From contig CP136063.1 of the NCBI GenBank assembly GCA_032622095.1, positions 29,204,987 through 29,268,986 on the forward strand: a stretch of 64,000 nucleotides of DNA, in the 5' to 3' direction. The stretch's first letter is position 1. Each line of letters begins with the position of its first letter. Below the pieces are notes generated by a model. That model had not been told where the DNA came from and did not search any database. It worked only from the letters and a program-made list of their open reading frames with translations. Made by a program: the position numbers and the translations under genes. This DNA comes from Siphonodentalium dalli (Eukaryota; Mollusca; Scaphopoda; Gadilida; Siphonodentaliidae). Shown here piece by piece: positions 1 to 59,404 of this stretch.

Positions 1-773
1 GTGTTAATATGCTTAGGCAGGGAAACGGACTCACTAAATGCCTTTTGGAACACGTCACACTTGTATGGGCGAAGACTCTGTAAATTATCTTGTGTTGGTA
101 TGACTGAAGGCTATTCAAACCACGTCACAATCATATGGTCGATTTCCGTTGTGGATTCTTTTGACACGGAATCAGACTGACTAAGTGCCGTGCATGGGCG
201 ATTGACTGTGTGATTTATCTTGTGCTGGTATACATGGAAGCTGTTCAAACCACATCACACTCGTATGGTCAATTACCGGTGTGGATTCTTTTGTCACGGA
301 ACCAGACTGACTAAGTGCCTTTTGGTACACGTCACACGTGTATGGGAGATTGACTGTGTGATTTCTCTTGTGCTGGTATGCCTGAAAGCTATTCAAACCA
401 AGTCACACTCGTATGGGCGATTGCCGGTGTGGATTCCTTTGTGACGGAACTGGACTCACTAAATATATTCAGTCACAAGTCACACTCGTATGGGCGATAG
501 CCACTATGGATTATCGGGTTGACTTTGTCATGAAAATCGTTCAGCGCCCGTCAAATTGTATTGAGGCAGTTTACTTCAAAAGCTGTAATTTTGTTATTAC
601 AAAAGTGGAGACCTAGATTTTTACTACAAAAGCTGGCGTTTTTTACTTCAAAAGCGGAGACCTCATTTTACTACAAAAGCTGGCGATCTTATTACAAAAG
701 TGGTGAGGCGTTTTTTACTTCAAAAGTGGCGACCTACTTCAAAAGTTGTCATTACTTCAAAAGCTGGCGTAAC
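1..773. mobile_element. Right arm of a second copy of the ZNF-armed long-TIR element
   Basis: The stretch is colinear with 5,190-6,724 of the complete element: ~148-bp degenerate finger repeats (fingers on the minus strand), then the CGGGTTGACTTTGTCATGAA spacer, then the TTACTTCAAAAG minisatellite. It ends in GCTGGCGTAAC at 773, identical to the terminus at 6,724. The rest of the copy lies outside the window, so the 8 bp after it (AGTCAGTA, 774-781) can only be proposed as one half of a target-site duplication. Its end interrupts a LINE RT reading frame. Confidence 0.85.
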
Positions 774-1025
774 AGTCAGTACATGTTGTGCCACCTTTTG
801 TTATTTTTATTATTCTATATTTATTTGGATTGATACATAATCTCCATTTCAGGCAATATTCTTCAAATGAATTAAGACAATTTTGTAAACCTTTCTTTGA
901 CCTACTGATCAAAACTAGGTCATCAGCATAAAGTAGACAATTAACATTTTTAGCATATAGGATTGGTGTGTCAAAATCCTTGGCTGAGTCAAATAAATTT
1001 GGAATATCATCCACATGATAAAGAG
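774..1025 (-). pseudogene. LINE reverse transcriptase fragment, catalytic YADD part
   Basis: The minus strand encodes LLYADDLVLISRSKKGLQNC and continues with a W-R-L-C-I-N-P-N-K stretch. YADD is the catalytic palm motif of non-LTR retrotransposon reverse transcriptases, which copy RNA into DNA at the target. The frame is cut on one side by the ZNF-armed element ending at 773 and on the other by a MITE whose TTAA site is 1,026-1,029. Its N-terminal continuation lies at 6,808-7,069 beyond both insertions. Clade is uncertain (CR1/L2/jockey-like). It is dead: both ends are lost and there are frameshifts. Confidence 0.85.
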
Positions 1026-1029
1026 TTAA

Positions 1030-1478
1030 AGATGGACTATCTCTTTAAATAACAAATTTTAAATAGTTGCGTGGGTATAAAATAATAGATATGAACTGAA
1101 GACCTTTGTCCGGAAAAGCTTCTATCAATTAATATTGATTTTATTTCGAATATTAAATCGGGCCCATTTATGTTACTATTTTTAGAACCGACCATTCGGA
1201 TGAGACCTTATTGCGATATAGAGCACTGGGCTGTTCCTACGGCTACGCAACGAATGTCAAATGACACATATTGGTTGTTTGTATTGTTTTGTTCCACAGA
1301 TATAAGCGATAATGAGTATAATTAACGTTTATTTGTGACAAAATTGCACAATATAATTTCTGGTCTATGTTAACAGTAACCACTATTGTTCTTTAGCTGA
1401 ACAAACACCCCTTTTTAGACCAGAAAATATTCGAAATAAAATTAATATTAATCGATAGAAGCATTTCCGGACAGGAGT
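1030..1478 (-). mobile_element. TTAA-site MITE copy 1, first piece
   Basis: It begins after TTAA (1,026-1,029) with AGATGGACTATCTCTTT and runs 449 bp until broken by the element starting at 1,479. The remaining 71 bp are at 6,733-6,803, closing at another TTAA. Summed length is 520 bp, equal to intact copies at 11,704 and 41,808. Confidence 0.9.
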
Positions 1479-1735
1479 GTTACGCCAGCTTTTGAAGTAA
1501 TTACCACTTTTGAAGTAGGTCTCCACTTTTGAAGTAAAAAACGCCAGCTTTTGAAGTAACTCACCACTTTTGTAATAAAATCGCCAGCTTTTGTAGTAAA
1601 GTGAGGTCTCCGCTTTTGAAGTAAAAAACGCCAGCTTTTGTAGTAAAAAAACTAGGTCTCCACTTTTGAAGTAACAAAATTACAGCTTTTGAAGTAAACT
1701 GACTCAATAAATTTTGACGGGCGCTGAACGATTTT
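1479..1735. repeat. Subterminal minisatellite, left arm
   Basis: Alternating short units with the core CTTTTGAAGTAA, written CGCCAGCTTTTGAAGTAA or CTCCACTTTTGAAGTAA, repeat about ten times. Some units carry GTAGTAA or GTAATAA instead. Dense subterminal repeats are typical transposase-binding regions; that role is an inference here. Confidence 0.85.
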
Positions 1736-1764
1736 CATGACAAAGTCAACCCGATAATCAATAG

Positions 1765-2960
1765 TGGCTATCGCCCATACGAGTGTGACGTGGTTTGAAT
1801 AGCTTTCAGTCATGCCAACACAAGAGAAATCACAGTCAATCGCCCATACACGTGTGACGTGTACCAAAAGGCACTTAGTGAGTCCGGTTCCGTGACAAAA
1901 GATTCCACACAAGTGATCGACCATACGAGTGTGACGTGGTTTGAATAGCCTCCAATCGTACCAACACAAGAGAAATCACACAGTCAATCGCCCATACACG
2001 TGTGACTTGTACCAAAAGGCACTTAGTGAGTCCGGTTCCGTGACAAAAGATTCCACACAGGTGATCGACCATACGAGTGTGACGTGGTTTGAATAGCCTC
2101 CAATCGTACCAACACAAGAGAAATCACAGTCAATCGCCCATACACGTGTGACTTGTACCAAAAGGCACTTAGTGAGTCCCGGTTCCGTGACAAAAGAATC
2201 CACACCGGTAATCGACCATATGCATGTGACGAGGTTCGAATATCCTTCAGTCATACCAACACAAGAGAAATCACACAGTCAATCGCCCATACGCGTGTGA
2301 CGTGTACCAAAAGGCACTTAGAGAGTCCGGTTCCGTGACAAAAGAATCCACACCGGTAATCAACCATATGCATGTGACGAGGTTCGAATATCCTTCAGTC
2401 ATACTACCACAAGGTAAATCACATAGGAAATCGCCCATACGCGTATGACGTGTACCAAAATGCACTTAGTGAGTCCGGTTCCGTGACAAAAGAATCCACA
2501 CCGGTAATCGACCATATGCATGTGACGTGGTTCGAATATCCTTCAGTCATACCACCACAAGGTAAAACACATAGGAAATCGCCCATACGCGTGTGACGTG
2601 TACCAAAATGCACTTAGTGAGTCCGGTTCCGTGACAAAAGAATCCACACCGGTAATCGACCATATGCATGTGACATGGTTCGAATAGACTTCAGTCATAC
2701 CAACACAAGAGAAATCACACAGTTAATCGCCCATACGAGTGTCCCGTGTACCAGAAGACACTTAGTGAGTCCGGTTACGTGATAAAATAATCCACACCGG
2801 TAATCGACCATGACGTGGTTCGAATAGCCTTCAGTCATAACAGCAGAAGATAATTTATAGTGTCAATCGCCCATATAAGTGTGACGTGTACCGAACGGCA
2901 TTTAGTGAGTCCGTTTTCCTGCCTAAGCATATGAACACACATAGGTGATCAATCATACGA
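1765..2960 (+). pseudogene. Decayed C2H2 zinc-finger array, left arm
   Basis: About eight tandem units with ~148-bp period (CGCCCATAC starts near 1,841, 1,990, 2,137, 2,287, 2,433, 2,580, 2,728, 2,867). Reading with frameshifts, a unit gives HKRNHTVNRPYECDVYQKAL, then S-E-S-G-S-V-T-K, then IHTGDRPYECDV. That is two C2H2 fingers with their linkers. The second cysteine of one finger is Y, the other finger has V plus a stop, and about 7 bp spelling the H-K-R segment is missing. An intact finger pair would be 168 bp, so each pair has lost about 20 bp. Because all units share the same lesions, amplification came after the gene died. Confidence 0.85.
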
Positions 2961-3180
2961 GTATATAAGATTGTTCCTAGTCAGTCTGACAATGCACACT
3001 ATTGAATGCCCTTACGAGTGCGACCGTTGTCAGAAGAAGTTCGATGTTACATTGAGTCAGACAAGACTGAAGACGCTTTGTCAGTCCAGTAACATGACGA
3101 CATATATAGTTTCTCAAAATTAGGTGATGTATTAGTTCCAACGGAAAATAGTTGGTATATTTATTATTGGCCTCACTTTT
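2961..3180 (+). pseudogene. Finger remnant at inner end of left arm
   Basis: The plus strand reads CPYECDRCQKKFDVTLSQT at about 3,010-3,065: the C-x2-C half of a C2H2 finger with F, but the histidines are gone. It matches, inverted, the remnant at 5,020-5,125 on the other arm. Arm homology continues through AACGGAAAATAGTTGGT at about 3,139-3,155. Confidence 0.7.
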
Positions 3181-4889
3181 AATTGCATATTCGTACCCTC
3201 GAAATTAGGTGACCCGACGCGTTAGGGACAGCAGAACATGTTTGGTTTATTAGATTCGTCTCTGGAAGGCGACATTAACAACAATTTTCAATCATTAAAA
3301 TTATGTCACATAACCGAAGTCAAATGCAGCTTTAAAACACGGGAGCCAGTAATGTGTTGTGTGGAAACCGTTGGGTTCACATACACTCTGATGATTGAGT
3401 ATATAAAATAACGGATTCGATGGCATTATGTCGCTATACAGGGAAATGGAACGAAGTTGTTGATGTAGTTAAATAATAATTAGTCAAATTTCCATCGAAA
3501 GCAACCTCAAATTTGATATCACAGGATAGTGATCACATCAAACAATTAATTATACGCCAATGTGAGCACAGCAATTTTGAGGCAAACTAATGTGTGCGTA
3601 GATAGGGATAAAGTGTGTCTTAATATTATCAATGTAACCGTATCACTGTCGTCCGTGTGGTATTAAATAGCTATTATGTATAAACCAGTCTGAACAGAAC
3701 GAGTACACTCGTACAGTTTCGATTGTTAAATTACCGTTATCTCGATTGTTAAATTCAAGAAATTATATGTGTGTGGTTATGTTCTATGAAATATAAATGC
3801 AAGTAGATCAGATATTTCATATATCAGTCAAACTTTGCAAACATACATCTTAGTGCGCACTGGTCGATCATGATTGATATCTAGATCTACAATGTAGCTC
3901 ATAATTACTACTCCCCTCATTTTCAACTACGTTAGTTATAAACGCCTAGACCGGGCGCTTCTCGCAATGTGGTAACCCCTTTCCAAAACAAAAACTAAAT
4001 ACCAAATGCAGAACAAAATTGCAACAATGAATTTATTGATATAATGCAAACCATCGGTGCAAGGGATTGATGAGCAATTATGTATAACACAAAATAGAAT
4101 ATATGCCAGTCCCTTCCCAATAGTATTGCCCTCGACTTACCAGCAACTTACCGTAAAATACCTGCCCTATTCAGGGCAACACCAGTTACTGGCGATTGTG
4201 GCCAATGTTGACACCTCCCACTCGCAGAGGACTCACATTCAACAATGCAATCGCAGGCATAGCTACCACATGGAATAATACACGCTCGGAACACGGGCTC
4301 CACTGGTCGCCATGGAGAATCACCACAACATAATGCCTGAACATTAAATGTTATGATAAAACATTACAACTGTAGCGCCCAAAGAGGCCGGATCTACACA
4401 GTGATATGGTATGCGATTTTCTTGTTATCCTGTTCCCTCTTTTGGTGGTTCTAGAGCTGTCACGAAGTCTCGAACGATATAACACAATCCCGTAACAGAC
4501 GTGAGTATGTTCAATAATTTAGTTTGTAATTCCAGGAACCATTATCTCTCGTTATTAAAGTGTCCAAAGGAGATTGTATTCCAGTTGTAAATTGAATGAA
4601 CATCTTTGACTTATTATTCTGTAGAACGTGCATGATAATATTATTCTAACTGGGACAATGAGTCGTGAAATTATGCAGAATCGGTGTCTTGTTGTATGAC
4701 ATTCTTAATCACCTGACATCTGGACTTTCGTCCTTTGTTTCATAGTTAGCCAATCAGAATGAACCACGTTAAAAAGAAAATGGACTTATTTATCATTATT
4801 GATAATCGACTATAAAATTACAAAAAGGAGACTGAACCATTTGGCACCAGGAACATTGCGAATTGGAAGTTTGACATAGGACTGTTCTT
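3181..4889. other. Unique centre of the long-TIR element
   Basis: About 1.7 kb between the arms. I find no frame over 75 codons, no DDE/DDD-like block and no match to the other repeats in the window. Whatever transposase mobilises the family is not encoded here, unless it has decayed beyond recognition. Confidence 0.6.
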
Positions 4890-5019
4890 CCAAAGAAGAG
4901 GACAAATAGACCAACTATTTTCCGTTGTAACTGATACATTTGTCACGTCCCCCAATTTTGAGGAAATATACATGTTGCCATGTTACTGGACTGACAGAAC
5001 GTCTTCAGACACACATCTT

Positions 5020-5125
5020 GTCACCAGCGTGGGTTCTCTTATATATTGTAAGACTCGCGGTCACGGCGAACTTCTTCTAACAAACGTCGCACCTATAAGG
5101 TCGGTCACCAGTGTGGATCGTCGGG
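5020..5125 (-). pseudogene. Best preserved zinc finger of the element (right arm)
   Basis: The minus strand reads IHTGDRPYRCDVC, a stop, KKFAVTASLTIYKRTHAGDK. Both cysteines, the F, the L and the last histidine of a C2H2 finger are present. The first histidine is Y and a stop follows C-x2-C. Classical linkers (HTGDRPY, HAGDK) flank it. It shows the arm array was once a normal TGDRPY-linked ZNF gene. Confidence 0.8.
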
Positions 5126-5169
5126 TTGACGGACAGACTGGGAACAACATTGCATACTCGTATGATTGA

Positions 5170-6470
5170 CCACCTATGTGTTCTCATATGCTTAGGCAAG
5201 GAATCGGACTAACTAAATGCCTTTCTGGTAAACGTCACACGTGTATGGGCAATTGACTGTGTGATTGATCTGGTGTTGGTATGATTGGAGGCTATTCAAA
5301 CCACGTCACACTCGTATGGTCGATTACCTGTGTGGATTCTTTTGTCACGGAACCGGACTCACTAAGTGCCTTTTGGTACAAGTCACACGTGTATGGGCGA
5401 TTGACTGTGTGATTTCTCTTGTGTTGGTACGATTGGAGGCTATTCAAACCACGTCACACTTGTATGGTTGATTACCTGTGTGGATTCTTTTGTCACGGAA
5501 CCGGACTCACTGAGTGCCTTTTGGTACAAGTCACACGTGTATGGGCGATTGACTGTGTGATTTCTCTTGTGTTGGTACGATTGGAGGCTATTCAAACCAC
5601 GTCACACTTTTTGTCACGGAACCGGACTCACTAAGTGCCTTTTGGTACAAGTCACACGTGTATGGGCGATTGACTGTATGATTTATCTTGTGTTGGTATG
5701 ACTCAAAGCTATTCAAATCACGTCACACTCGTATGGTCGATTACCTGTGTGGATTCTTTTGTCACGGAACCGGACTCACTAAGTGCCTTTTGGTACAAGT
5801 CACACGTGTATGGGCGATTGACTGTGTGATTTCTCTTGTGTTGGTACGATTGGAGGCTATTCAAACCACGTCACACTTTTTGTCACGGAACCGGACTCAC
5901 TAAGTGCCTTTTGGTACAAGTCACACGTGTATGGGCGATTGACTGTGTGATTTCTCTTGTGTTGGTACGATTGGAGGCTATTCAAACCACGTCACAATCG
6001 TATGGTCGATTACCTGTGTGGATTCTTTTTGTCACGGAACCGGACTCACTAATTTCCTTTTGGTACACGTCACACGTGTATGGGCGATTGACTGTATGAT
6101 TTATCTTGTGTTGGTATGACTCAAAGCTATTCAAACCACGTCACACTCGTATGGTCGATCACCTGTGTGGAATCTTTTGTCACGGAACCGGACTTACTAA
6201 GTGCCTTTTGGTACAAGTCACACGTGTATGGGCGATTGACTGTGATTTCTCTTGTGTTGGTACGATTGGAAGCTATTCAAACCACGTCACACTCGTATGG
6301 TCGATCACCTGTGTGGAATCTTTTGTCACGGAACCGGACTCACTAAGTGCCTTTTGGTACACGTCACATGTGTATGGGCGATTGACTGTGATTTCTCTTG
6401 TGTTGGCATGACTGAAAGCTATTCAAACCACGTCACACCCGTATGGGCGATAGCCACTATTGATTATCGG
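5170..6470 (-). pseudogene. Decayed C2H2 zinc-finger array, right arm
   Basis: Inverted counterpart of 1,765-2,960, again with ~148-bp units (GTGTATGGGCGATTGACTG recurs near 5,240, 5,392, 5,540, 5,660, 5,807, 5,926, 6,077, 6,226, 6,370). Two units near 5,600 and 5,870 share the same ~30-bp internal deletion, where TCACACTTTTTGTCACGG replaces a longer segment, so units are still being copied within the array. Plus-strand frames reading MCWYDWRLFKPRHT are antisense artefacts of this array. Confidence 0.85.
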
Positions 6471-6489
6471 GTTGACTTTGTCCGTCAAA

Positions 6490-6724
6490 ATTTATTGAGT
6501 CAGTTTACTTCAAAAGCTGTAATTTTGTTACTTCAAAAGTGGAGACCTAGTTTTTTTACTACAAAAGCTGGCGTTTTTTACTTCAAAAGCGGAGACCTCA
6601 CTTTACTACAAAAGCTGGCGATTTTATTACAAAAGTGGTGAGTTACTTCAAAAGCTGGCGTTTTTTACTTCAAAAGTGGAGACCTACTTCAAAAGTGGTA
6701 AGTTACTTCAAAAGCTGGCGTAAC
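6490..6724. repeat. Subterminal minisatellite, right arm
   Basis: TTACTTCAAAAGCTGGCG and TTACTTCAAAAGTGGAGACC units, the exact inverse of 1,479-1,735, end in GCTGGCGTAAC. The TTACTTCAAAAG core repeats about ten times. Confidence 0.85.
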
Positions 6725-6732
6725 ACAGGAGT

Positions 6733-7073: not shown

Positions 7074-7585
7074 AGGTGGATTATCTCTTTGTAAACGTGC
7101 ATTATATAGTTACCGGAGTATAAAATATTTGATTTGAATTGAAGATTTCTGTCCGGAAATGCTTCTATCGATTAATATTCCTTTCATTTCGAATATTATC
7201 TGTTCTAAAATGTGTGTTTGTTCAGCTAACGAACAAAAGTGGTTACCTGGTTACTGTTAATAGAGACCAGACATTTTATTGTACACTTTTTTCACAAATA
7301 AACGTTAATTATACTCATTATCGCTTATATCTGTGGAACAAAACAATAAAAAAAATCAATCTGGGACATTTGACATTCGGTGCGTAGCCATAGGAACAGC
7401 CCAGTGCTCTATATCGCAATGTGGTATCATCCGAGTGGTATGTTCTAAAAATACTAACATAAACGATCCCGATTAATATTCGAAATAAAATCAATATTAA
7501 TTGATGGAAGCTTTTCCGGACAGGGGTCTTCAGTTTATACCTACGCAACTATTTAAAATTTGTTATTTAAAGAGATAATCCATCT
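7074..7585 (+). mobile_element. TTAA-site MITE copy 2
   Basis: Body AGGTGGATTATCTCTTT to AAAGAGATAATCCATCT, 512 bp, between TTAA at 7,070-7,073 and 7,586-7,589. Internally it has the family landmarks TCCGGAAATGCTTCTATC and, inverted near the far end, GATAGAAGCTTTTCCGGA (here with GATGG). The ends form imperfect ~120-bp inverted repeats. Confidence 0.9.
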
Positions 7586-8158: not shown

Positions 8159-8677
8159 AGGTGGATTATCTCTTTGTAAACATTCATTATATAGTTACCG
8201 GGGTATAAAATATTAGATTTGAATCGAAGACTCCTGTCCGGAAATGCTTCTATCGATTAATATTAATTTTATTTAGAATATTTTCTGGTCTAAAAAGGCG
8301 TGTTTGTTCAGCTAACGAACAATAGTGGTTACTGTTAACCAAGATCAGAATTTTTATTGTACAATTGTGTCACAAATAAACGTCAATTATACTCATTATC
8401 GCTTATATCTATGGAACAAAACAATACAAACAATCAATCTGGGACATTTGACTTTCGGTGCGTAGCCGTAGGAACAGCCCAGTGCTGTATATCGCAATAT
8501 GGTATTATCCGAATGGTCTGTTCTAAAAATACTAACATAAACGATCCCGATTTAATATTCAAAATAAATCAATATTAATTGATAGAAACTTTTCCGGACA
8601 GGGGTCTTCAGTTTATATCTATTATTTTATACACACGCAACTATTTAAAATTTGTTATTTAAAGAGATAATCTATCT
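8159..8677 (+). mobile_element. TTAA-site MITE copy 4
   Basis: 519-bp body AGGTGGATTATCTCTTT to AAAGAGATAATCTATCT, with TTAA at 8,155-8,158 and 8,678-8,681. Confidence 0.9.
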
Positions 8678-9227: not shown

Positions 9228-9790
9228 TGTTGGATTACCTGTTACAGTGATTGTTCCTCTGCCTAACAGAACCTCCCTAGGTACATCGGCGTTACAGTGA
9301 TTGTTCAGCTGTCTGACAGAGCCTCCCTATGTACATCGATGTTACAGTGATTGTTCGTCTGTCCGGCAGAACCTCCCTATGTACATCGGTGTTACAGTCA
9401 TTGTTCCCCTGTCTGGCAAAACCTCCCTAGGAACATCGATGTTACAGTGATTGTTCGGCTGTCTGGCAAAACCTCCCTAGGAACATCGATGTTACAGTGA
9501 TTGTTCGGCTGTCTGGCAGAACCTCCCTATGTAATCGGTGCCACTGGGGTTATTTCCCATGAGCTTTGACCAAACTCTATGTGCGGAATCCACTGCACAC
9601 TGCATCGGTGTTACAGTGATTGTTCCTCTATTTGGCGACAGAATCTCCCTAGGAACATCGATGTTACAGTGATTGTTCGGCTGTCTGACAGAACCTCCCT
9701 ATGTACATCGGTGTTACAGTGATTGTTCAACTGTCGGGCAGAACCTCCCTAGGAACATCGGTGTTACAGTGATTATTTCCCTTTCTGGCA
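9228..9790. repeat. 50-bp minisatellite downstream of ZNF gene 1
   Basis: About eleven units of CATCGGTGTTACAGTGATTG, then TTC-y-tCTGTCTGGCAGAACC, then TCCCTAGGTA. Units differ by a few substitutions and one is interrupted by a TGCCACTGGGGTTAT segment. The array has ~10 units in block 3 (39,140-39,645) and under two in block 2. Confidence 0.85.
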
Positions 9791-11703: not shown

Positions 11704-12223
11704 AGATGGATTATCTCTTTAAATAACAAATTTTAAATAGTTGCGTGGGTATAAAATAATAGATATGAACTGAAGACCTATGTCCGGAAAAGCTTCTATC
11801 AATTAATATTGATTTTATTTCGAATATAAAATCGGGCCCATTTATGTTACTATTTTTAGAACCGACCATTCGGATGAGACCTTATTGCGATATAGAGCAC
11901 TGGGCTGTTCCCACGGCTACGCAACGAATGTCAAATGTCACAGATTGGTTGTTTGTATTGTTTTGTTCCAACGATATAAGCGATAACGCGTATAATTAAC
12001 ATCTATTTGTGACAAAATTGCACAATATAATTTCTGGTCTCTGTTAACAGTAACCACCATTGTTCGTTAGCTGAACAAACACACCTTTTTAGACCAGAAA
12101 ATATTCTAAATAAAATTAATATTAATCGATAGAAGCATTTCCGGACAGGAGTCTTCGATTCAAATCTAATATTTTATACCCCGGTAACTATATAATACAT
12201 GTTTACAAAGAGATAATCCACCT
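11704..12223 (-). mobile_element. TTAA-site MITE copy 5 (intact reference copy)
   Basis: 520-bp body, AGATGGATTATCTCTTT to AAAGAGATAATCCACCT, TTAA at 11,700-11,703 and 12,224-12,227. It contains the uninterrupted CCGGACAGGAGTCTTCG that serves as the empty site for the 5.2-kb element. Confidence 0.92.
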
Positions 12224-14499: not shown

Positions 14500-14925
14500 A
14501 TGTAGTTGAATATATGTGATCATTTAGGCAACAGGCACCAAAGGCGCCCAAGCGTCGATCGCACACCGGGAAGCGACCATATAAGTGTGGCGTGTGAGGA
14601 ATCATCTACATCCATCATAGAACGCCACATGACCAACACCCCGAGGAGCGACCATATAAGTGTGACATGTGTGGAGAATCATTATCTGCATCTATCATAG
14701 AACGCCACATGTCCAACAGTTTACACCCCGAGGAGCGACCATATAAGTGTGACGTGTGTGGGCAACCATTATCTGCATCCATCATAGCACGCCACATGTC
14801 CAACACCCCGAGGAGCAACCATATAAGTGTGACATGTGTGGGGAATCATTATCTGCATCCACAATAGAACGCCACATGTCCAACATTTCACTAAGCCCGA
14901 AAGCTAATATTATTTATGAATACTA
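14500..14925 (+). pseudogene. Array of unusual finger repeats, copy 1
   Basis: Four or five repeats of RPYKCDMCGESLSASIIERH followed by MSNSLHPEE. The spacing is C-x2-C-x11-H-x5-H, with L where the finger core F should be. The first repeat is more classical (HTGKRPYKCGV, then a stop), so the family descends from C2H2 fingers. Units come in two lengths, 87 bp with AACAGTTTACACCCC and 80 bp with AACACCCC. The 7-bp difference shifts the frame, so no single frame spans the array. The region ends at AACATTTCACTAAGCCCGAAAGC, shared with the 43,040 copy. Confidence 0.75.
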
Positions 14926-15541
14926 CCAAATATTTGCTGCCATGGATTTAGCAAATGACAATCATGTTACATATTGGTGCCTGTTCCTAATTATGTTTTT
15001 CACTTTCGGTAGAAAGTCTAATTTCATGCCCACAACTATTAAGAATTTTGATCCGCATAAGCATCTTTGTCGTCGTGATATTACACGTTATGAATCCGGT
15101 TTGATAATTCATTTTTATTGGACTAAAACAATTCAATATGGAAATAGAAAATTGGAAATTCCGATACCAAAGATTGATTCGTCGTGTTTGGACCCGGTTA
15201 CTGCTTTTAATAATATGTGTGCTAAATTTTCACTGGAACCCGACAAACCTGCTTTTGTTATTCGTGACAAAACTCGTATTATTCGTGTCACATATAACCG
15301 TTTCACAAGGTTTTTGCGTCACATGATTACAAGCATTGGTGAAAATGCGTCTAAATTTTCGTCGCACAGTTTCCGTCGAGAGGCTAGTACGCTAGCCTTT
15401 CAAGCAGGTGTTGCATCCGAGCTAATTCAAAAACACGGTGATTGGCGGAGCGACGCTTATAAGGCTTATTTGGAGTTTAGCTTCGATGACAAAAAGAAAG
15501 TTGGTACAGCATTAATTAATCATATTTTGCATTCCTCATAA
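14926..15541 (+). pseudogene. Tyrosine recombinase of a DIRS/Ngaro-like retroelement (N-terminally truncated)
   Basis: An open frame of ~205 codons without stops. From its start: YQIFAAMDLANDNHVTYWCL, FTFGRKSNFMPTT (first catalytic arginine region), HSFRREASTLAFQAG (H-x-x-R box), HGDWRSDAYKAYLEF (second H-region and nucleophile tyrosine). These are the R...H-x-x-R...Y residues of tyrosine recombinases, which integrate DIRS-type elements through circular intermediates. The 5' part (Gag, RT, RNase H and recombinase N-terminus) is absent: paralogous sequence at 43,075 diverges at TATGAATACTA, placing the junction near 14,926. The frame is continuous with the last finger of the preceding array, so a chimaeric 261-residue frame (14,756-15,541) exists. 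Whether it is expressed is unknown. Confidence 0.85.
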
Positions 15542-30524: not shown

Positions 30525-31609
<1,085 letters not shown>

Positions 31610-39139: not shown

Positions 39140-39645
39140 ATGCTGGATTACATGTTACAGTGATTGTCCCTCTGTCTAACAGAACCTCTCTAGGTACATC
39201 GGTGTTACAGTGATTGTTCATCTGTCTGGAAGAACCGCCCTAGGAACATCGGTGTTACAGTGATTGTTCATCTGTCTGGCAGAACCGCCCTAGGTACATC
39301 GGTGTTACAGTGATTGTTTCTCTGTCTGGCAGAACCGCCCTAGGTACATCGATGTTACAGTGATTGTTCCTATGCCTGGCAGAACCACCCTATTTACATC
39401 GGTGTAACCGCCATTATTCATCTGCCTAACAGAACCTCCCTAGGTATATCGAGGTTACAGTCATTGTACCCCTGTCTGGCAGAACCTCTCGAGGTACATC
39501 GATGTTTCCATCATTGTTCCCCTGTCTGGCATAAGCTCGCTATGTACATCGATGTTACACTGATTGTTCCTCTGTCTGGCAAAACCTCCCTATGTACATC
39601 GGTGTTACAGTGATTGTTCCTATGTCTAGAAAAACCACCCTATGT
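39140..39645. repeat. 50-bp minisatellite downstream of ZNF gene 3
   Basis: About ten units of CATCGGTGTTACAGTGATTG type; see 9,228. Units include CCGCCCTAGG variants not seen in block 1, so the arrays evolve separately. Confidence 0.85.
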
Positions 39646-39879
39646 AATCGGTGCCACTGGGGTTATCATCTCATGAGCTTTGACCAAACTCTATGCGTGG
39701 AATCCATGTTGTACATAATTCAAGCGAGGCCTTCCAATCATATAGTTTATAGTTACAAAGAAGATTCATTCCGCCCTATTTTCTGTTCTGTCACCAGAAT
39801 CTAAGATTGTTTCCAATTTTCCTGTGACGAACATATTAAATATCAGAAACTACATTTGGATAGATGTATGTGATGTTAT

Positions 39880-41283: not shown

Positions 41284-41803
41284 AGATGGATTATCTCTTT
41301 AAATAACAAATTTTAAATAGTTGCGTGGGTATAAAATAATAGATATGAACTGAAGACCTATGTCCGGAAAAGCTTCTATCAATTAATATTGATTTTATTT
41401 CGAATATTAAATCGGGCCCATTTATGTTACTATTTTTAGAACCGACCATTCGGATGAGACCGTATTGCGATATAGAGCACTGGGCTGTTCCTACGGCTAC
41501 GCAACGAATGTCAAATGTCACAGATTGGTTGTTTGTATTGTTTTGTTCCACAGATATAAGCGATAATGAGTATAATTAACGTTTATTTGTGATAAAATTG
41601 CACAATATAATTTCTGGTCTATGTTAACAGTAACCACTATTGTTCGTTAGCTGAACAAAAACACCTTTTTAGACCAGAAAATATTCGAAATAAAATTAAT
41701 ATTAATCGATAGAAGCATTTCCGGACATGAGTCTTCGATTCAGATCTAATATTTTATACCCCGGTAACTATATAATACATGTTTACAAAGAGATAATCCA
41801 CCT
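41284..41803 (-). mobile_element. TTAA-site MITE copy 12
   Basis: 520 bp, TTAA 41,280-41,283 and 41,804-41,807. Shares its right TTAA with copy 13, in opposite orientation. Confidence 0.92.
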
Positions 41804-41807
41804 TTAA

Positions 41808-42327
41808 AGGTGGATTATCTCTTTGTAAACATGTATTATATAGTTACCGTGGTATAAAATATTAGATTTGAATCGAAGACTCCTGTCCGGAAATGCTTCT
41901 ATCGATTAATATTAATTTTATTTCGAATATTTTCTGGTCTAAAAAGGTGTGTTTGTTCAGCTAACGAACAATAGTGGTTACTGTTAACAGAGACCAGAAA
42001 TTATATTGTGCAATTTTGTCACAAATAAACGTTAATTATACTCATTATCGCTTATATCTGTGGAACAAAACAATACAAACAACCAATCTGTTATATTTGA
42101 CATTCGTTGCGTAGCCGTAGGAACAGACCAGTGCTCTATATCGCAATACGGTCTCATCCGAATGGTCGGTTCTAAAAATAGTAACATAAACGGACCCGAT
42201 TTAATATTCAAAATAAAATCAATATTAATTGATAGAAGCTTTTCCGGACATAGGTCTTCAGTTCATATCTATTATTTTATACCCACGCAACTATTTAAAA
42301 TTTGTTATTTAAAGAGATAATCCATCT
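41808..42327 (+). mobile_element. TTAA-site MITE copy 13
   Basis: 520 bp, TTAA 41,804-41,807 and 42,328-42,331. With copy 12 it forms a 1.05-kb perfect-looking inverted dimer around one TTAA. Confidence 0.92.
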
Positions 42328-46249: not shown

Positions 46250-48733
46250 TTGTTTTCTCGGCTGATAATTCATTAGTAGGATCACGGCAACTGTTTTCCG
46301 GTTGTAACACCTGGGGAAATTAAAATATTCAAAATTGCAAAAAACCTACCCAAAAACGGCATATGGCCACACGGGTCTGATCATGTTCAATTTAGTATCA
46401 GGAGTGAGAAATCACGTTACATCGTATTTTTATGTATGTAAGTTTACACTAGATCTTTAAAATGTTACTTGCCTAACTTTCGTATATACAAAATGGCGGC
46501 CAAACTGGCGGCCGTAAAAGATAATTTATCGGAATTCATAACAAATGAACTTCAATCGGATATCTACACGTTTTGGAACGTGACTCAACTTTTACCCTCA
46601 TTATAGTAAACTGTATTTAGTTGCTGTGTATGTTACCACGTGCATGTAGAACAAAAATCTATTAAGGCATGTCGATATCATTATTCGCATTTCGTTACAA
46701 AGAAACATTCAAAAGCGATGAAAAGTGCAATTAAAACGCAATGCAATGAAATGTATCACGCGTATTCGGTGTATAATGTGAAGGACTGTCTAACCAAGCC
46801 CATGTTCATAATATTGAGTTGTATTGGATCAGAGCGGGAATCTGATTCCCCCACAAGACATCGTGTAGAAAATTATTCTTCTTTTCTTCTCAGCTGGAAA
46901 CACTCAATGCTCCAGGTATTCCTTATAAAACGCGAGGTCAATGGAATAATTACCGAATTATGTATCCATGAGGGTGCGCACACTATGCACCATATCAGTG
47001 ACAGTTTAATGGTATTTATACTGACATGGCCGTTGAGATAACCTGCGTGCATTATGGTCACCACGCTAAAATCAGAGAATGTTCGTTCATTTGAGCATAC
47101 AGTTTACATAACTGCAATTATCGGATAAACGACTTGGATTGTATTCGAGAGAATGGAGTGTCATAGAGACTCGTTAAAACTGGAGCTGCGTATTGACCCA
47201 CTTGATCCGAATAATGTGGAGTCTGAACAAATGACTACCAATTCCTCGGTCAATGTGGATAAGATGGCGAAAATTGGTCGAGAATTGGTGATAATTTTCT
47301 TTAAAATAGTGGGCGTCCAGTTTTCATAGTACAAATAGCCGGAACGTAAAATAAATTTCAACAGTCAGTAAGCCCATACACATTGGAAACGCAAACCATT
47401 TTGATGTACAAGTTATTTCAGTCTTGGGCTATGAGACCAACTAGCACGGAGCATGAAAATTGATGCCATCTTTATATATAAGCTATCGCCCTATATACCT
47501 GCAATGTTCAAGTCCAATGGACATACAAAGGAGGGATATTCTAAACAGACCTGATGAATGCTCAACGCGTCGCATCACAGCTGACGTATAAAAAAACGGA
47601 GTCATCAATGTCACCTTCCTTGGCGGCTGTGCAATTGTATTGCAATTATAATTATATTCTATTGCAGTTATATTCCATTCTATTCCAAGTATGTCGTTGG
47701 CTACCACTAGATTTAGCGCGACTTTCTTGATGCATTTATGTCAAACTACTCCATAAATGATAAAGATAGATGTATACTTGACACTCGATGGTACAATACA
47801 CTCAACAAATAAACGAATCCTAGTAAACTAAGGGATAAGATCCTATTTCTGTTGTAATAAGTACATAAGGTCGTGTTTATCAAGACGCTTGATCTCAGAT
47901 CGACTAAAAGAAGGAGATACTCTTATTGTCCTACATGTTGCGCGTGTAGCAGCCCAACCATCGTTAGTTGTAACAGATGACATCGATATATTTGTATTGT
48001 TGCTCCATGATTTTTATGTTATTTATCCGACCAGATACTGGTTGTCGCACCCACAAAAAGACGAACAATAATCGCGAATGAATTGCTAAAAGCTTGCATG
48101 GCATGTGAGCAACGCATGGACTTACAAGGTGTGATACCGTCGCAGCTCTTCGTTGAATAGGACAATATACTGCACTTAAAATTCCCAAAGTTTGAAATCA
48201 CACTCTGATATATTATTTGTAACAATAGGGAGAGTTGTAGACGACGCTAGACCAGTTAGTTTGGATTATTAAGGACAACCAAATTGCCAATCAACCAGAG
48301 GCTCGGTGGAAAATATGGTCAAACAACCGACGAAGCGTTAATTGAAAGTATCAAACGCGTTCACTTACACGTATGTGTATGGAGACATATTTATAGGAGA
48401 ACGTACGATTTTCTGCGAAACCGAAAGTAGATGTTTGAACCAATCACATTACAACAATAAAATCTGGTTGCTCATCTTCTGTCAGCACATCAAGTAAATG
48501 CTTCTTATTTTTGACACGCTGACGTTTATATTCAACAAGGTGATTACTGGAATTCCTCTGCTGTTTCCTGTCATCATTTTTCATTGTCACTTTCATTCAG
48601 GATAGTATTAATAGCAGTGACAATGATCGTGTAATAATTCTGGTCCTCAAATACATTTGTATGTTGTTTTTCATTGTATTCTTTACAGTTCTGAGAAAAC
48701 TGAGCTGTCCATATTCATTTGAAAAATAAGACC
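46250..48733 (+). repeat. Segment P, older diverged copy
   Basis: Colinear with 52,156-54,987 at roughly 90% by eye, from TTTCTCGGCTGATAATTCAT to AATAAGACCAAGCCAG. It lacks the ~450-bp GGAC-repeat insertion found at 52,530-52,985 and keeps ~140 bp around 47,360-47,500 that the younger copies have lost. Confidence 0.85.
46810..48070 (+). pseudogene. Segment P pseudogene, uncharacterised DTDVFVLLL-type family, copy B
   Basis: Reading with frameshifts: DSLKLELRIDPLDPNNVESE, SSVNVDKMAKIGREL, FKSNGHTKEGYSKQT, MNAQRV-type block, NVTFLGGCAIVLQL-like block, then EGDTLIVLHVARVAAQPSL and VVTDDIDIFVLLLHDF (47,905-48,010). The order (leader, INATFLGGCAIV, KIDVY-type, EGDT-x-IVLH, DDIDIFVLLLH) matches a widespread uncharacterised animal protein family that I recognise from such blocks but cannot name. 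Multiple stops and frameshifts; no function inferred. Confidence 0.6.
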
Positions 48734-51767: not shown

Positions 51768-52529
51768 GACGTTATCTTCTTGGCTCTTCATTTTCACACT
51801 GTGCTAATTAAAAAACCTCATTAATATCATTGAAACTCATTCTGCAGATATTTGAACGCAAGCATGAGTCTCCACACAATTATACCCAAAAATTATACCG
51901 CTATACATGCCGATTGTGGCCAGTGAATGTTCATGAATTAGTCGTAAGACGGCGTCAATTGACAGGTGACAAATCTGATAGATTGGATCAATCACACCAT
52001 CGACAGCGTGTGTCGTTTGCGCTGAAGCAAAGATACCTTTGCGTTCAGCCGCTACCATATAAACTACCTGGTTTATAAAATAGTCTCGCTTGGTGAATAG
52101 CACCCCAAATGTCTCATCAGAACCCAACATATAACCCAAAATTTTATGGTAACGTTTTTTTCTCGGCTGATAATTCATTGTAGGATCTCGGCAGCTGTTT
52201 TCCGGTTCATGTGGACGAGTAACCCTTGGGGAAATTGAAATATTCAAAATTGCAACAACCTACCCAAAACGGCATATGGCCGTACGGGTGTGATCAAGTT
52301 CTATTTAGTATCAGGAGTGAGAAATCACGTTACAACGTGTTTTATGTGTATAAGTTTACACTAGATTTAAAATGTTACCTGCCTAACTTTCGTAGGATTA
52401 TACAAAATGGCGGCCAATCTGGCGGCCATAAAAGATGATTTATCGGATTTCATAACAAATGAACTTCAACCGGATATCTACACTTTTGTAACGTGACTCG
52501 ACTTGACCCTCCTTATAGTAAACTGCATT

Positions 52530-58022: not shown

Positions 58023-59404
58023 GACGTTATCTTCTTGGCTCTTCATTTTCACACTGTGCTAATTAAAAAACCTCATTAATATCATTGAAACTCATTCTGC
58101 AGATATTTGAACGCAAGCATGAGTCTCCACACAATTATACCCCAAAATTATACCGCTATACATGCCGATTGTGGCCAGTGAATGTTCATGAATTAGTCGT
58201 AAGACGGCGTCAATTGACAGGTGACAAATCTGATAGATTGGATCAATCACACCATCGACAGCGTGTGTCGTTTGCGCTGAAGCAAAGATACCTTTGCGTT
58301 CAGCCGCTACCATATAAACTACCTGGTTTATAAAATAGTCTCGCTTGGTGAATAGCACCCCAAATGTCTCATCAGAACCCAACATATAACCCAAAATTTT
58401 ATGGTAACGTTTTTTTCTCGGCTGATAATTCATTGTAGGATCTCGGCAGCTGTTTTCCGGTTCATGTGGACGAGTAACCCTTGGGGAAATTGAAATATTC
58501 AAAATTGCAACAACCTACCCAAAACGGCATATGGCCGTACGGGTGTGATCAAGTTCTATTTAGTATCAGGAGTGAGAAATCACGTTACAACGTGTTTTAT
58601 GTGTATAAGTTTACACTAGATTTAAAATGTTACCTGCCTAACTTTCGTAGGATTATACAAAATGGCGGCCAATCTGGCGGCCATAAAAGATGATTTATCG
58701 GATTTCATAACAAATGAACTTCAACCGGATATCTACACTTTTGTAACGTGACTCGACTTGACCCTCCTTATAGTAAACTGCATTTGGTTTTATCACTACG
58801 AGGTGTGCACCCGCGTGCTAGCATACCCAACCGTTGGAAATTCAACACACATTATCCGTAAACAGCATCCACACACACAAAATCCCAATCAAAATAAGTC
58901 GAAAATGAAGTGTAATGTTAGGAAAAACAGTCCGAGCCAACCCTGAGCCGCATCACGTAGAGAGGTGTTGTGAGATGCATGTATACCAAAAATTATTGAA
59001 ATCGGTTCATATTTGTTAAAGTTATTAAGTCGGACAAAATAAATCGAAAAGTAAGGCGTAACTTAACAAAAAGAAAGTCGAAGCGCAATTAGCATCACGC
59101 GGAGAGGCGGTACTAATGAGATTGCATACAACACATTATTGAAATCGGTTCATAGTTGTTCGAGTTATGAGATCGGACGGACGGACGGACGGACAGACGC
59201 AGTCAATCCAGTATACCCCCTATTTTATTCAAAAGTGGGGGTATAAGAAAAATTGATCAAGCATGTCGATATAATTGTTCACATTTCGTTACAAAGCAGC
59301 ACTCAAAAGCGATGAAAAGAGCAATGGAAACGCAATGCAATGAAATGTATGACGCGTATTCGGTGTATAATATGAAGGACTGTCTAAACAAACACATGTT
59401 CATA

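Follow-up and report, generated by a model that had tools for sequence, protein, structure and literature searches.

A putative Ginger-like transposon with inverted arms of zinc-finger-derived repeats in the scaphopod Siphonodentalium dalli

The element, its insertion site and its family

The window, a 64,000-nucleotide stretch of the Siphonodentalium dalli genome (contig CP136063.1, assembly GCA_032622095.1), carries near its left end a transposon with long inverted arms whose features are collected in Table 1. The original prediction placed perfect inverted termini at 1479 and 6724 beside an 8-bp duplication. The inversion is near-perfect, but each end was off by one, since other copies end in TGTTAC...GTAACA and so set the element at 1478-6725. 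The outer inverted match (1501-1720 with 6482-6701) extends over 220 nt with 100% complementarity and a second (1739-1980 with 6241-6482) over 242 nt with 98%, while positions 1686-3426 of the element have no inverted match, which gives arms of ~1.7 and ~1.8 kb.

Table 1. Coordinates of the element and associated features in the window.
Feature	Position	Strand	Remarks
Whole element	1478-6725		5248 bp; termini TGTTAC...GTAACA; placed by the ends of other copies
Target site duplication (TSD), left copy	1472-1477		CAGGAG, 6 bp; end comparison and empty site
TSD, right copy	6726-6731		CAGGAG, 6 bp; end comparison and empty site
Left tip	1478-1735	+	258 bp; nine direct CTTTTG[ATC]AGTA copies; no finger-profile match
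Left arm array	1770-2913	+	148-bp units, two C2H2 remnants each
Finger remnant, inner end of left arm	2993-3068	+	19.7 bits with the 61.6-kb gene profile
Core without inverted match	3163-4903		no ORF of at least 120 aa
Site of missing transposase-bearing middle	3446-3488		~4.6 kb in L011 and L039
Best-preserved finger	5029-5118	-	reads IHTGDRPYRCDVC*KKFAVTASLTIYKRTH
Right arm array	5192-6451	-	148-bp units, some only 121 bp
Right tip, inverted	6482-6725	-	placed by inverted match
Second, older copy (L027 895-3761), right part	1-774		TSD GTCAGT

The duplication proved to be 6 bp rather than 8 bp long. Among 39 left ends tested, 26 have an exact 6-bp TSD, three a 5-bp TSD and ten none; these comprise 20 copies with both ends, 17 of them with the exact 6-bp TSD (L013, L019 and L039 lack it), and 19 further left ends, compared as 60-base stretches, with nine exact, three 5-bp (pairs L062/L063, L066/L067 and L072/L073, judged by eye) and seven without, nested copies being paired with more than one candidate right end. 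One 6-bp case repeats the context of another, leaving 25 distinct TSD sequences. An A precedes the duplication in 17 of the 26 cases, a T follows it in 17, and agreement extends to 8 bp in eight; the target-site preference is symmetric, GA|SWNNWS|TC, and accounts for the eight duplicated bases of the original claim.

The element interrupts a copy of a host repeat. Its joined flanks (200 bases from the left, 60 from the right) align over their full 260 bases to seven other repeat copies in the window. Identity is 94.6-98.5%, and six of the seven alignments are gapless; an eighth copy aligns with gaps at 87.7%. These unsplit copies provide a paralogous empty site for the element. The repeat is abundant and interspersed, and lies in both orientations at window positions 1278-1477, 7086-7352, 8171-8430, 11952-12211, 31109-31368 and 41532-42079.

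As anticipated, a search of the genome (2.23 Gb in nine contigs) with the tip recovered many copies whose ends agree. An exact 23-base end occurs 375 times (181 forward, 194 reverse) and its reversed control not once genome-wide, while the tip query gave at least 45 matches, 40 at 100% after rounding, with 40 of 850 first-look candidates scored. The copies compared here come from 20 genome regions and one additional region. The window copy agrees at ~99% over its whole length with L013 and L014, which suggests that it moved recently. Some copies are nested in the tips of other family members (L009 7379, L015 2496, L018 4362 and L017 4812), with the TSDs GGTACT, GTTACT, GAGGTC and the 5-bp GTTAC. 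At G000:C1:115949172-115956468 pairs of the exact unit word described below appear four times, 2375 bp apart, as if a fragment of the element were arrayed in tandem.

Elsewhere in the window, a segment apparently recurs at 47634, 53876 and 60131 with ~6.25-kb spacing and includes nearly identical 140-aa frames (51837-52259 and 58092-58514). Arrays of similar 50-bp tandem units lie at 9240-9537 and 39153-39653, each near a zinc-finger gene, and a plus-strand frame at 14753-15541, following finger-like repeats, weakly resembles tyrosine recombinases (Phage_integrase, 3e-5, short of the cut-off).

Architecture of the finger-derived arms

Each arm runs from a 258-bp tip at its outer end through tandem 148-bp units to a better preserved finger at its inner end. 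The left tip sequence is the same or nearly the same in 40 of the 45 genome matches listed. Its repeated CTTTTG[ATC]AGTA motif is absent from the remainder of the arm, the core and the window beyond 6725, and the array is a candidate set of transposase-binding sites.

Finger likeness was scored with two nucleotide profiles, one built from 39 fingers of five window ORFs and the other from the nine that the 61.6-kb gene encodes. The arms reach 37.1 and 49.3 bits respectively, whereas the left arm, shuffled 200 times with its dinucleotides preserved, gives maxima of 7.8 and 6.6 bits, and in all 19 copies scanned the matches lie on the plus strand in the left arm and on the minus strand in the right, which bears out the reading of the arms as decayed C2H2 fingers in mirror arrangement. 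The alignment of the inner finger covers all 90 profile positions, and in L009 and L021 a W occupies the place of its stop codon. In the outermost 258 bp neither profile finds a match, so that the finger origin proposed for the terminal inverted repeats (TIRs) holds for the inner arm units and not for the tip. No donor gene was found among the fingers of the window, where the top identity is 67.8%.

The predicted units of ~148 bp are present in tandem in both arms, eight in one arm of the window copy and ten in the other. Each equals two finger profiles minus ~13 and ~7 bases (20 bases in total), from which we infer that frame loss preceded amplification; the units are out of frame, 148 being indivisible by 3. 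Their number varies between arms and between copies while positional likeness is retained, and in the 1.4-kb copy L008 the order is unusual, with five units pointing one way and a sixth the other. A comparison of 256 of the 275 units, those of at least 135 bp, gave a likeness of 0.906 for the same position in different copies (3715 pairs), 0.898 for the two arms of one copy (100 pairs) and 0.850 where both position and copy differ; since the first two values are alike, an ongoing homogenisation of arms within a copy is disfavoured.

Taken individually, the outer units give modest finger scores (~8-24 bits), as might be expected if they were a satellite of other origin that resembles fingers by chance. 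Such an origin retains next to no probability: the top shuffle score of 7.8 bits and the full-length alignment of the inner finger speak against it, as does the distribution of an exact 24-base unit word, which occurs 770 times genome-wide against the 375 exact ends, fewer per end than in the sampled copies (154 in 38 ends), and on contig C1 90 of the first 100 words listed are no farther than 10 kb from an exact end. A satellite origin is rejected on these results, and as far as tested the units are not a separate satellite.

Longer copies and classification

The longer, transposase-bearing form sought on the basis of the original prediction exists as copies of ~9 kb (L011, L009/L010 and L039), alongside one of 7 kb (L026). 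L039 has an open frame of 909 codons, and the long-copy protein matches the Pfam families rve (4.8e-11) and OTU (2.4e-6), both above cut-off, with integrase catalytic residues D173, D234 and E269, the last two separated by 34 residues (DD34E). Among solved structures phmmer ranked foamy-virus integrases best, followed by Ty3. The gene is interrupted in L010 and L011; an open transposase frame was seen in L039 alone, which is one of the ten left ends where the partners tried gave no TSD. Of 2396 candidates from a protein search 143 were scored, and among these, relatives with at least 71% identity occupy six loci, so the gene is apparently carried by few copies. The window copy matches L011 and L039 colinearly apart from the ~4.6 kb that it lacks, and on sequence comparison is a deletion derivative of the longer integrase-bearing form. 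As the ends are common to both forms, the integrase-like protein of the longer copies probably moves the short ones as well.

From its domains, termini and TSD the element is best called Ginger-like, a label that rests on the DD34E integrase-like protein with OTU encoded by the ~9-kb copies. Ginger1 elements are described as having a Gypsy-type integrase core with a C-terminal OTU or Ulp1 protease domain, an H2C2 zinc finger upstream of the core, termini TGTNR, TIRs of 40-270 bp, a size of 2.6-7 kb and a 4-bp TSD, CCGG or CCGT (PMC2836005). GPY/F and YPYY motifs are further marks of Ginger1. The Gypsy-like core, the C-terminal OTU and deletion derivatives are common to both, the start TGTTA fits TGTNR, and the tip falls inside the length range of the Ginger1 TIRs (PMC2836005). 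In contrast to the Ginger1 described there, the present element has a 6-bp TSD of 25 different sequences, inverted arms 1.7-1.8 kb long that consist of finger-derived repeats, and longer copies of ~9 kb (PMC2836005). Pfam gave no H2C2 match up to E 5 in the long-copy protein, and residues 27 to 226 of the L039 frame contain no cysteine; lacking both this finger and the 4-bp CCGG TSD, the element is kept out of Ginger1. The 6-bp TSD and the absence of an HHCC domain are shared with GingerRoot/IS3EU elements, whose termini are mostly TA..TA and occasionally TG..CA, the type seen here in TGTTAC...GTAACA, according to the account in PMC10045372. Ginger2/Tdd differ in having a 4-5-bp TSD and an RTATAY target in place of 6 bp and GA|SWNNWS|TC. 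A 6-bp TSD is likewise found in Polinton/Maverick elements, which carry polymerase and capsid genes; in the long copies our Pfam scan covered the frames of the integrase/OTU gene together with one other.

In form, though not in descent, the element is of foldback type, with long inverted arms and inner tandem repeats of variable number. It resembles Drosophila Galileo and Tetris, as described, in having long arms in which an outer end is followed inward by tandem repeats (of about 210 and 220 bp in those elements), in the differences in unit number between arms and in its deletion derivatives (PMC3573991, PMC4079207), and both Galileo and the present family include some copies without a matching TSD (PMC3573991). 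Galileo however belongs to the P superfamily and has a 7-bp TSD (PMC3573991), and the arms of Galileo and Tetris are reported to derive from the elements' own sequence, whereas those described here derive from a gene family (PMC3573991, PMC4079207).

Origin and significance of the finger arms

Several copies lie within or at the edge of C2H2 arrays (L008 1500-2914, L028 544-6405, L039 427-9640 and L001 up to 1492). In L008 a finger continues through the joined flanks of the empty site, and in L028 and L039 the finger matches stop at the insertion point. With ends nested in other copies mostly excluded, a finger match was found within 500 bp of 10 of 45 ends and at 8 of 28 loci. Among control tiles the frequency is 3 of 100 in 20 regions ~200 kb away (p 0.0005) and 15 of 114 in the window itself (p 0.12); with both controls pooled p is 0.011, and by locus the comparison is 8 of 28 against 2 of 20 (p 0.11). 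Ends that belong to one locus are not independent of each other. Exact finger words are too variable to gauge finger density, and some of the matches beside L009, which adjoin a remnant of another copy, and L010 may be element debris. As the two controls disagree, with p at 0.0005 or 0.12, targeting of finger arrays by insertion is no more than suggestive.

The best explanation, in which we place good confidence, is that of a non-autonomous Ginger-like cut-and-paste DNA transposon, probably moved by the long-copy protein, that is likely to have captured a piece of finger sequence which was then inverted and amplified. An ancestor would have acquired a piece of a C2H2 array next to one tip, break repair would have copied this piece, inverted, onto the opposite side, and the two-finger unit, its frame already lost, would have been amplified through unequal exchange, while the long-copy protein would bind the repeated tip motif and mobilise both long and short forms. 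Galileo arms are reported to grow by inverted recruitment of neighbouring internal sequence and tandem expansion, with unit numbers that may be unequal in the two arms of one copy (PMC3573991); if a finger array next to a tip went through these steps, arms like those seen here would result. The opportunity for recruitment existed, as copies are inserted in finger sequence (L008, L028 and L039).

The fingers might alternatively be the decayed remains of a second gene of the element itself, encoding a DNA-binding protein, with no capture from the host. Their presence in all 19 large copies scanned, those with transposase included, makes the finger sequence as old as the sampled family and agrees with this proposal; we nevertheless hold it unlikely, as the arms of the copies examined contain no intact finger frame, the units sit in both arms outside the transposase gene, and finger genes with this type of linker abound in the window. 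Host fingers could also have become enclosed if a single finger region had received two oppositely oriented copies that then moved together, an idea to which the copies within finger arrays (L008, L028, L039) and in one another's tips (L015, L018, L009) lend some substance. This composite origin is decidedly improbable, because enclosure does not explain units in mirror orientation on both sides and inverted copying would still be required.

Under the favoured history the finger arms are in all likelihood passengers that the element tolerates and that have no function of their own. The repeated motif expected of binding sites would be that in the tip and not the finger array, and the length and complementarity of the arms would be enough for a hairpin in read-through RNA. 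That such transcripts form finger-like double-stranded RNA which lowers host zinc-finger repressors, with insertion preferring finger arrays, seems very unlikely; if true, an element living among C2H2 clusters would turn finger sequence against those genes. The original prediction knew of no described family with this structure; through its integrase and OTU the family has a Ginger-like affiliation. Its combination of traits appears new: an integrase-plus-OTU transposon with a 6-bp TSD, foldback-like arms, and units derived from a gene family, for which we found no joint report in the open-licence part of PubMed Central. Since the units can still be traced to a gene family, it becomes testable here in what order capture, inversion and amplification took place, which is hard where foldback arms are of unknown origin.
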